Positions 4,327-53,658 of a stretch of 64,000 nt of DNA are shown here, piece after piece. Each line of letters opens with the position of its first letter. The first letter of the stretch is position 1. The translations under genes and the position numbers were made by a program. The stretch comes from Spirosoma endbachense. Its GTDB lineage: Bacteria > Bacteroidota > Bacteroidia > Cytophagales > Spirosomataceae. The notes beneath the pieces were generated by a model that was not told the origin of the DNA, did no database searches, and was given only the letters and a program-made list of their open reading frames with translations. The stretch covers positions 3,497,779 to 3,561,778 of the forward strand of contig NZ_CP045997.1 in the NCBI RefSeq assembly GCF_010233585.1, in the 5' to 3' direction.

Positions 4327-4490
4327 AGAGATTCGGGATTTTTGCAGATTGGTTAGGTAAAAACAGCCTGAAAGAAAATCAAAGGTTAACTTATTCGATT
4401 ATTCGATTGTCTTTTAGTAAGAAGCAAAAGTAACGAAAAACCTAACGCTATAGTAGATATCTCCGCTCGAATTAACCGATCAGTGAACCG

Positions 4491-5970: not shown

Positions 5971-5994
5971 TGTTTTGCTATTTGTTTAAGACAT

Positions 5995-6089
5995 TAGGAC
6001 TTTCGCTTCGAGCTGTGCCACCGCACGGCGGACCGTGGTTACTACTGATGGATAAACTAACCGTGGCACGGCTCGAAGCGAAAGTCCTA
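5995..6089. repeat. Palindromic intergenic element, copy A
   Basis: Arms 5995-6021 and 6063-6089 are 27-base inverted repeats with one mismatch, which is a U-G pair in plus-strand RNA. The arm begins AGGACTTTCGCTTCGAGC after one T. The 41-base middle includes the end of a 26-base core, 6015-6040, found identically in copies C (reverse complement) and D. No coding frame is present. It lies between two leftward genes, 25 bases from the start of the DinB-like gene. Confidence 0.85.
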
Positions 6090-6115
6090 GAGATATATAA
6101 CAACAAACTTTCAAA

Positions 6116-10489: not shown

Positions 10490-10563
10490 GTTATTTTATA
10501 ATCAATAGTCAGCTTGCCACGCTTATTGGCTAGCTATTAATAAGTAAGTCCAGAGAAGATTCT

Positions 10564-10612
10564 AAAGCCGAAGGGTACTTTATTCGCTGCGAATAAAGTA
10601 CCCTTCGGCTTT
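10564..10612. repeat. Perfect 23-bp inverted repeat with 3-base loop
   Basis: Arms 10564-10586 and 10590-10612 are exactly complementary around CTG. The arm begins AAAGCCGAAGGGTACTTTAT. There is no U-tract on either side. It lies 75 bases after transglycosylase 1 and may end its transcript, stabilise the mRNA end, or be an independent palindromic element. Confidence 0.85.
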
Positions 10613-10895
10613 ACTTTGAGGATGTTGGGAAGGCTACGAATCTGACATAAGTTTATGTTTAGAATTCGCAACACATAGCCTGAGTTGGTATAAGCAAATT
10701 GTAATCCAATTGTAGCTTCTTATCTATTCTAAATTAGCTTTCAGTCAAGCCAGGTGATCGTTTCATAAAGGTAAAAAGCATTTTCATACCTTTTTCTGGG
10801 CTTACATAAGTCAAAAAAATATAGTACTTTTTTTTCCAAGCCAAAGGCATACATCTTGATTAATACCCTTAGTGGACAGAATTTAATCTATATGT
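10613..10895. other. AT-rich intergenic stretch
   Basis: No gene seen. The stretch is AT-richer than its surroundings, including poly-A and poly-T tracts near 10815-10840, and probably holds promoters for downstream genes. No TAnnTTTG box was convincing. Confidence 0.4.
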
Positions 10896-22940: not shown

Positions 22941-23066
22941 GAATTAGTTTTCTTTTGGTTTAGCAGCAAAGAATACGAATTAGGTGCAAAGGACTCTAAG
23001 AAACAACTTTGTGTTTCCCTACGCGCGGTTCTTTGCCAGATAAAACACGCAAACCAATTACTCCTT

Positions 23067-23142
23067 GGCCTTTGGCATGGAGCCGTGCCACGGTTTGATT
23101 TATTCTGATAGGTAACCGTGGCACGGCTCCATGCCAAAGGCC
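23067..23142. repeat. Palindromic intergenic element, copy B
   Basis: Arms 23067-23095 and 23114-23142 are perfect 29-base inverted repeats around an 18-base loop. The arm begins GGCCTTTGGCATGGAGCCGT and ends in GCCACGGTT. Compared with copies A and D the outer arm differs, yet both arms of B changed together. It lacks the 26-base core of A, C and D. Confidence 0.85.
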
Positions 23143-23159
23143 TAACTCCATAAAACATC

Positions 23160-28263: not shown

Positions 28264-28306
28264 GGTCGCTGGCGATAAGCCGTGCCACGGTTGTTATTAG
28301 CGAACC
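28264..28306. repeat. Palindromic element fragment, copy E
   Basis: GGTCGCT at 28264-28270 faces AGCGAACC at 28299-28306 around the shared central motif AGCCGTGCCACGGTT, also seen in copy B. Only one half of the full structure is present, so this looks like a truncated copy. Confidence 0.55.
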
Positions 28307-34501: not shown

Positions 34502-34597
34502 GCTCAGATGCGTGCCACGGTTACTACTGATGCGCAAACAAACCACGGTCCGCCGTGCGGTGGCACGCAGCGGTGGCACGCATCTGAGCGAAAGTCC
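34502..34597. repeat. Palindromic intergenic element, copy C
   Basis: Arms 34502-34518 and 34573-34589 (GCTCAGATGCGTGCCAC and complement) are perfect 17-base inverted repeats. The 26-base core of copies A and D is present in reverse complement at 34541-34566. The right side continues into CGAAAGTCCT, matching the outer end of copy A; the left side lacks it. A GCGTGCCACCGC-type segment is doubled on the right, so this copy is rearranged. It starts three bases past the RidA-like stop codon. Confidence 0.8.
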
Positions 34598-34598
34598 T

Positions 34599-34745
34599 CT
34601 AATCGTCTGGTTCGTATGTTGCCAATACGATTATAAAATCATTCCATCGCCCATTGTCGAACGCGATGGTGTTATCTTTATTCCAACCGACGACGTAGTG
34701 CCCTCTGCTATTGATCGCCAAACCCGACCGGCAAACTAGGCACAC
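34599..34745 (-). pseudogene. Possible gene remnant beside element C
   Basis: A minus-strand frame from GTG 34745 to the stop at 34599-34601 encodes 48 residues including RGHYVVGWNKDNTIAFDNGR and FIIVLATYEPDD, which look protein-like. The opposite strand also reads open (IIPSPIVERDGVIFIPTDDV). Neither has a recognised family, a good start or the length of a full gene. It may be what is left of a gene truncated by the element, or noncoding. Confidence 0.2.
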
Positions 34746-42011: not shown

Positions 42012-42076
42012 TAAAGGCAAATGAGTGATTAGAAATCTGGTTGTTAGCCAGTTATCTAATCACTCATTTGCCTTTA
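42012..42076. terminator. Long hairpin between purQ and the Old Yellow Enzyme gene
   Basis: Arms 42012-42033 and 42055-42076 are perfect 22-base inverted repeats (TAAAGGCAAATGAGTGATTA... and complement). The loop contains a further CTGG/CCAG pairing. It begins 12 bases after purQ and ends 17 before the convergent stop, so it can terminate both. Confidence 0.75.
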
Positions 42077-48136: not shown

Positions 48137-48155
48137 AAATCTCAGTATTAGATTT

Positions 48156-48247
48156 AGGGCGTTGGCTTCGAACCGTGCCACCGCACGGCGGACCGTGGTT
48201 TATTAATCGTCATCAAGAACCGTGGCACGGCTCGAAGCCAAAGCCCT
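48156..48247. repeat. Palindromic intergenic element, copy D
   Basis: Arms 48156-48181 and 48222-48247 are 26-base inverted repeats with two mismatches; the right arm's complement begins AGGGCTTTGGCTTCGAGCCG. The core 48175-48200 is identical to that of copies A and C. It starts 20 bases after the cysteine-synthase-family stop and has no coding content. Confidence 0.85.
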
Positions 48248-48359
48248 GGAATTATTCATCTATCCAATCAAGACGCTCCTTAAGAGGGGTCATCAGCCCT
48301 TGTTTAATGACGTTAAAGTACTTCAACAAATGGTCAGTAATCCTGATGAGTATCGTTAA

Positions 48360-49266: not shown

Positions 49267-49315
49267 CAACTCGGCTGTTGGCAGAAGCTACTTTCTTCTG
49301 CCAACAGCCGAGTTG
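49267..49315 (-). terminator. Hairpin terminator after the ABC permease
   Basis: Perfect 21-pair stem, 49267-49287 (CAACTCGGCTGTTGGCAGAA...) with 49295-49315, loop CTACTTT. It lies 28 bases past the stop of the permease gene on the minus strand. Confidence 0.75.
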
Positions 49316-52723: not shown

Positions 52724-52776
52724 GAATGTGGTATCACGGTTTATGGATGGACCGGCTTTACCGTGGTACCGCGTTC
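52724..52776. repeat. Divergent relative of the palindromic element, copy F
   Basis: GAATGTGGTATCACGGT (52724-52740) pairs with ACCGTGGTACCGCGTTC (52760-52776). All three departures from perfect pairing are U-G pairs in plus-strand RNA. It shares the CACGGT/ACCGTGG heart of copies A to E. It lies in the divergent promoter region of the ATPase and esterase genes. Confidence 0.55.
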
Positions 52777-53611: not shown

Positions 53612-53658
53612 CAGGACTTTTGTTCGGTATCGTACCAGGGTGCTGAATAAAAGTCCTG
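53612..53658. terminator. Hairpin between the esterase and tamL
   Basis: CAGGACTTTT (53612-53621) pairs perfectly with AAAAGTCCTG (53649-53658). Inside is a second hairpin, GGTA-TCG-TACC (53626-53636). The genes converge here, so it may act on both. Its outer arm AGGACTTT is the same as in palindromic elements A and C, so it may be related to them. Confidence 0.6.

Follow-up and report, generated by a model that had tools for sequence, protein, structure and literature searches.

A dispersed palindrome family of Spirosoma with arms that change together at orthologous sites

MITEs of DDE transposons are short, non-coding elements with inverted termini and a target duplication. Short palindromes accompany TnpA-REP subclass 2.6 of the Bacteroidetes, which carries the motifs NHxH and YIH[QN]NP and whose gene is flanked by genome-recurrent hairpins without GT[AG]G (as described in the excerpt of PMC6006769). 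Some TIRs of TIRtrons are self-complementary (PMC3733652, in part), and enzymes of the IS200/IS605 type leave no larger target duplications according to the available text of PMC2817692. Template switching between inverted repeats homogenises their arms and inverts their spacers (PMC8604942, excerpt) and can both create and repair stems (PMC8794818, excerpt). Among papers that mention both Spirosoma and palindromic sequences, titles and the starts of abstracts describe no such elements as those reported here, and a literature search returned no work joining REP with template switching or MITE with Cytophagales.

We analysed a 64-kb stretch (the window) of the 10.33-Mb, single-contig genome of Spirosoma endbachense (G000) and compared it with other genomes, chiefly a related Spirosoma genome, G004. 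A hairpin family of REP type, its RAYT gene and an unexplained 5-bp duplication occur together in one genus, where they are open to testing.

Core hairpin and copies of the family

The core of the family consists of CGTGCCACGGTT and AACCGTGGCACG on either side of a loop that measures 3 or about 18 nt, and is almost invariant among 15 aligned copies. Exact matches to ACCGTGGCACG in G000 numbered 130 + 114, compared with 1 + 3 for a reversed-pattern control. Exact core pairs numbered 81, against 0 in the control. A covariance model built from 15 copies found at least 150 matches. The sequence-only reading, which had proposed a dispersed palindromic family from four window copies (A–D), had named scarcity of copies and lack of arm covariation as grounds for giving it up, and neither was seen. 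The catalogue used below, made up of 126 distinct copies whose core pair was usable, is incomplete: a search of G000 for the terminal motif gave 93 matches (2 in the control) and about 30 sites beyond the catalogue. In twenty extra regions taken from that search we saw hairpins that were complete, degenerate or had lost their centre, besides half arms and chance matches.

Core counts were patchy across 36 Spirosoma genomes, with 244 in G000, 161 in G004, 50 in G003, 38 in G007, 27 in G009 and 22 in G005; the remainder had at most 14, a range in which the control alone reaches 10. The exact core pair was present in 15 of 222 family genomes and the control in none of the 222. A scan of 84,980 species, each represented by one genome and possibly omitting records of the window's own genome, returned 72 stretches from Spirosoma, Telluribacter, Persicitalea, Niastella, Longitalea, Chitinophaga and unnamed Bacteroidota. 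Outside Spirosoma the element was mostly a bare 33-bp hairpin, with no more than three unbroken pairs beyond CGTG in 33 of 42 copies. GT[AG]G was not found at the foot of these 42 minimal hairpins; T stood at position 3 in 77 of 84 ends, with no further consensus.

An inverted-repeat listing of the window placed A–D as palindromes, after small corrections of their limits; neither these copies nor their relatives below are assigned a strand. Copy A (5995-6089) is a hairpin of the NAGG...CCTN form; its left arm contains an inner block of 15 nt, and its outer arms, 27 nt long, are 96% complementary. It is flanked by an imperfect 5-bp duplication, GACAT/GAGAT, at 5990-5994 and 6090-6094. Copy B has perfect arms (29 nt, 100% complementary) and an 18-nt loop; TTGG opens its left arm, CCTA closes its right arm, and the duplication ACTCC at 23060-23064 and 23145-23149 sets its ends at 23065-23144. 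The sites of both A and B are empty in G004. Copy C (34502-34599) has a complete orthologue in G004, relative to which it has lost its left tip and carries a 28-nt insert in its right arm. At the site of copy D (48155-48248), G004 holds a hairpin with different but mutually matching arms; the arm first listed for D was its right arm, and the left arm is AGGGCGTTGGCTTCGAAC. The motif CCGTGCCAC earlier ascribed to all four is absent from some, since A reads CTGTGCCAC and C reads GCGTGCCAC.

Two further segments had been called a fragment and a diverged relative, and the comparison agrees: E (28264-28306), a decayed relative with one core half, is decayed in G004 too, and F (52724-52776) is strongly diverged in both genomes. 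A further copy at 53612-53658 has its core deleted (CAGGACTTTTG...AAAAGTCCTG), while the G004 orthologue keeps it. Near window position 4380 the situation is reversed, with a complete NAGG...CCTN copy in G004, GAAAATC on both sides of it, and no copy in G000. Other long inverted repeats in the window (10563-10613, 42012-42076 and 49267-49315; 93–100% complementary) appeared by eye to be unrelated to the family.

The RAYT gene and its flanking hairpins

A search of G000 with the PF01797 profile gave 0 matches. This was a false negative, and the view that G000 has no RAYT was dropped when a protein query from Persicitalea found an open homologue. The query is a 213-aa ORF with RAYT motifs that lies between two inverted core copies on a Persicitalea contig (L262:6667-7308); it has no Pfam match itself and matches 125 of 222 family genomes. 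Surveys that rest on PF01797 alone can therefore miss the RAYT subclass represented by the Persicitalea and G000 genes. The G000 gene (G000:C1:5742454-5743044, locus L336) has an open frame with 46% identity to the query and scores E 6.8e-14 and 52 bits against NF047646, below the cut-off of 80. Its HFH and tyrosine motifs are invariant in an alignment with 12 relatives, and its predicted model (pLDDT 85.9) is closest to 4er8, a RAYT-REP complex (E 7.1e-8, TM 0.59/0.69). G000 thus holds the HuH, single-tyrosine type of enzyme expected of a RAYT/REP system. A PDB sequence search yielded nothing beyond weak matches of monooxygenase type (E 3e-4 or higher), and a loose HuH expression run over the translated loci was uninformative. 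From its motifs we would place the G000 protein in TnpA-REP subclass 2.6, an assignment that is ours and follows the excerpted definition in PMC6006769.

Core hairpins flank the RAYT gene on both sides in four of 30 fetched loci (L326, L327, L335 and L336), from G000, Persicitalea, Telluribacter and S. arboris; the others had other hairpins, partial matches or none that we found. In Persicitalea and Telluribacter the flanking stems are 15 bp long; the two beside the G000 gene reach 33 and 41 bp, those of S. arboris 41 and 39 bp, and the arm sequences of these long stems are peculiar to each copy. In G004 the gene (L356 9700-10400) lacks about 270 bp internally, and of its right-hand hairpin the arms remain but the core is gone, yet hairpins persist elsewhere in that genome at the count given above. 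The sequence-only reading had likened the palindromes to REP elements moved by RAYT transposases, a guess that was half right: the kinship holds, whereas RAYT chemistry does not predict the 5-bp duplications described below.

Several related genes were also observed. A second, distant RAYT homologue with 30% identity lies at G000:C1:811437-811961. RAYT genes at L337, L340 and L345–L353 adjoin other near-perfect hairpins of about 25–60 nt, built for example on CCGTCGGACGGC or GTGGTGGCACGAC. At L331, in G002, a RAYT 55% identical to that of Persicitalea has on one side a 39-bp perfect stem of unrelated sequence, possibly a case of stem growth.

Insertion sites and the 5-bp target duplication

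Within Spirosoma, the core hairpins have longer arms, mostly of the form NAGG...CCTN, and 5-bp target duplications, and the unit is about 80–110 bp long. Under a lenient rule applied without a control, a AGGNCTTTNGC-like arm was present on at least one side in 109 of the 126 copies. In the 73 copies that end in AGG...CCT, direct repeats outside the NAGG...CCTN termini are most marked at a length of 5 bp (identity 0.638 vs. 0.308 shuffled). Eighteen of these copies have a perfect 5-bp duplication, whereas 200 shuffles gave 0.48 on average and never more than 4; at 6 bp there were 5 perfect repeats (0.18 shuffled). The duplicated 5-mers vary among copies. In S. arboris, only 2 of 20 loci had a clear 5-bp duplication. 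The 42 minimal copies outside Spirosoma showed no clear one (identity 0.305 vs. 0.280 shuffled); at 6 bp, one of 8 lengths tried, their identity was 0.353, which 2 of 500 shuffles exceeded.

For 39 sites both flanks were located in 1.713 Mb of G004, and we scored 18 of them as empty, 18 as occupied and 3 as other; the last three proved to be occupied too, giving 21 shared sites. The 18 empty calls include one core deletion (the right hairpin of L336) and messy junctions at L035, L049, L167, L173/1523 and L193, and those at L039/1519 and L149 were made without inspection of the junction. Against G004, duplications were visible at copy B and at L172 (TTCCC), and with mismatches at copy A, L053, L080 and L171, while none was seen by eye at L039/1047 and L165. 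Inverted termini, target duplication and empty sites, the marks of a MITE, are thus found together.

An IS1634-type transposase, picked as a candidate for the duplication length that we take it to produce, was rejected as the maker of the duplication after a search gave 0 matches. The idea that the NAGG arms are the ends of a larger transposon gained no support in the regions searched: none with such ends was found in the 1.713 Mb of G004 or in the 20 further G000 regions, which showed hairpin forms or chance matches and, like the G004 portion, cover part of the genome.

A separate feature of the arms is a block of 15 or 16 nt (CGCACGGCGGACCGT or CGCAGCCGCGGACGGT) between GTGCCAC and GG, usually in one arm, seen in L152, L163, L164, L174, L055 and copies A and D. 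It was gained or lost in one arm between species at L152, L163, L164 and L174, and is tandem in L055.

Arm changes, their explanation and known systems

The outer arms had been described as differing between copies and nearly complementary within each, and this was borne out. Over 14 positions in 126 copies, mean arm mismatch was 4.6% within copies and 40% between them, and 77 of the 126 stems were perfect. In 15 chosen ungapped copies, 56 cells had changed on both sides of a pair, compared with a shuffled mean of 16.2 (sd 3.2). We then compared the 21 sites shared by G000 and G004, which are about 93% identical, with arms cut to 20 positions. Of the 399 ungapped columns, 278 were unchanged and 63 showed an identical change in the two arms; a further 4 were of pattern xyxy (shared asymmetries), 1 was of pattern xyyx, 47 were one-arm changes (29 + 18) and 6 fell outside these classes. 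For independent arms the expected number of symmetric changes is about 0.65 if divergence is 7% and 5.3 if it is 20%. Twenty-two of the 63 fall at nine sites with 17–18-nt loops, and these shared loops prove common descent at those sites. Six of the nine long loops are direct and three are inverted (L020, L071 and L199); at L015, L166 and L336, where the loop has 3 nt, its orientation is direct, not inverted.

Symmetric indels separate G000 from G004 at L020, L071 and L336, and at L196 one core base is deleted in both arms. At L163, AAAACCCC is swapped for TTCGAGCC in both arms around an identical loop. An 8-nt unit present in both G000 arms of L150 occurs in one G004 arm, which is an intermediate state. 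Several one-arm changes each were seen in copy C, L174 and L166, and likewise in L173c. Symmetric in-place arm changes and spacer inversion, the signature looked for in template switching, are therefore both present.

The arms are most likely rewritten to match one another by DNA replication switching between them. The reading we favour, with a probability of roughly 0.7, is that the core belongs, as its REP hairpin, to a Bacteroidota RAYT of the subclass 2.6 type, and that in Spirosoma this hairpin acquired longer arms, spread in the manner of a MITE and has its arms copied by template switching. On this account RAYT would have moved the core; the 33-bp hairpin would have gained longer arms in Spirosoma, and one arm type (NAGGNCTTTNGC...) would have been amplified and integrated with a 5-bp target duplication, acting as a MITE with a REP at its centre. 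Once the element is inserted, template switching during replication of the hairpin would repeatedly copy one arm onto the other; the arms would thereby change in sequence yet stay near-complementary, indels would come to be shared by both arms, and the loop would sometimes be flipped. IS200/IS605-type enzymes do not make duplications such as the 5-bp ones of Spirosoma, so RAYT alone would not explain the spread, and the duplication calls for an enzyme making staggered cuts, presumably a separate one. Several observations run against this reading: the RAYT score below the cut-off, the missing Pfam match of the Persicitalea protein and the weak monooxygenase-like PDB matches, the 47 one-arm changes, the direct 3-nt loops, the fit of loop inversion with recombination between arms as well, and the small number of perfect duplications, with none at L039/1047 and L165 and few in S. 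arboris. No enzyme for the duplication was found by the IS1634-type and NAGG-end searches.

Covarying stems are usually taken as proof of structure selection, and the sequence-only reading offered either such selection or spread by hairpin copying as the cause. The strong covariation upheld its premise, but the in-place origin of the changes at orthologous sites, the symmetric indels and the inverted loops fit template switching better than structure selection or transposition. Selection for a hairpin used in RNA processing, termination or as a protein-bound cruciform, with covariation as ordinary compensatory evolution, would account for the near-perfect stems and the almost invariant core, and we consider it quite improbable. 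Of the 126 copies, 114 lie outside ORFs by a crude ORF caller (39 of 300 random G004 positions), so that the claim that all are intergenic stands for most of them. Neighbouring genes were tandem at 65 copies, convergent at 26, divergent at 22 and unresolved at 1, while in 600 kb of G004 intergenic bases were 61% tandem, 15% convergent and 24% divergent; this leaning to convergent gaps (26 of 113 resolved), which would favour selection, is at most mild. Gain and loss among close relatives are fast, with A and B absent from G004 and the insertion near 4380 absent from G000. G-U intermediates would be expected at the RNA level, yet arm mismatches included 20 G-T and 31 A-C in strands not oriented by transcription. 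T runs were not clearly enriched next to the stem (16 of 126 copies vs. 10 of 126 at 150 nt distance), and an Rfam search of the window gave no match; an intrinsic terminator and a known structured RNA were rejected on these results and on the lack of a G-T excess. Selection also does not predict symmetric indels or inverted loops.

Instead of template switching, the arms might be homogenised by gene conversion or homologous recombination, with each other or with other copies; we think this rather unlikely. Loop inversion also fits arm–arm exchange, modules such as CAAAACCCC recur in several copies, and both L163 variants occur elsewhere. However, arms of about 30 bp are short for RecA, a single tract from another copy would not change both arms of L163 and leave its loop identical, and the changes at L336 and L196 are private symmetric one-base indels. 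As for insertion, a RAYT that itself inserts the long form and leaves the 5-bp duplication in its own subclass would need no second enzyme. The identity between the RAYT-flanking core and that of the amplified copies, and the absence of a NAGG-ended transposon from the regions searched, agree with this proposal, but the minimal copies outside Spirosoma show no 5-bp duplication, related enzymes leave no larger one (PMC2817692, in part) and the duplicated 5-mers differ among copies; we regard it as unlikely. We hold more tentatively than the favoured reading, at somewhat under an even chance, that the element is a chimera of two transposition systems, a RAYT REP with TIR-like arms that would integrate by 5-bp staggered cuts and have its palindrome repaired by template switching. 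If so, it would be a selfish, self-correcting hairpin that owes the upkeep of its structure to the replication machinery rather than to selection for any function in the host.

For G000 and G004, paired changes, symmetric indels and loop flips thus occur at the same sites in elements that are quickly gained and lost. A single pair of bacterial genomes can serve as a natural assay of the rate at which replication rewrites palindromes, and the family is a warning for covariation-based RNA discovery.

The Spirosoma element is like MITEs in being short and non-coding, with inverted termini, a target duplication and empty sites in a relative, and unlike them in that it is built around a REP core, with a RAYT resident in the genome, and that a partner transposon was not found in the 1.713 Mb of G004 and 20 G000 regions. 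With subclass 2.6 it shares a Bacteroidetes host, the NHxH and YIH[QN]NP motifs and recurrent flanking hairpins without GT[AG]G; the structures of that subclass are called atypical and weaker in the excerpt of PMC6006769, whereas the Spirosoma stems are strong, with long, copy-variable, internally matched arms, a 5-bp duplication and loop inversion. Insertion without duplication was checked; it agrees with the minimal copies outside Spirosoma but does not hold for the long form, which sets the whole element apart from a subclass 2.6 REP. Like canonical GTAG REPs, REPINs and TIRtrons (PMC3733652, as excerpted), it is a short dispersed palindrome beside tyrosine transposase genes, but it has no GTAG tag and forms a unit of about 80–110 bp. 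With template-switched inverted repeats it shares arm homogenisation, spacer inversion and paired multi-base changes; the cases in the available parts of PMC8604942 and PMC8794818 concern yeast genes and RNA genes, whereas here a bacterial repeat family is affected at many orthologous sites.
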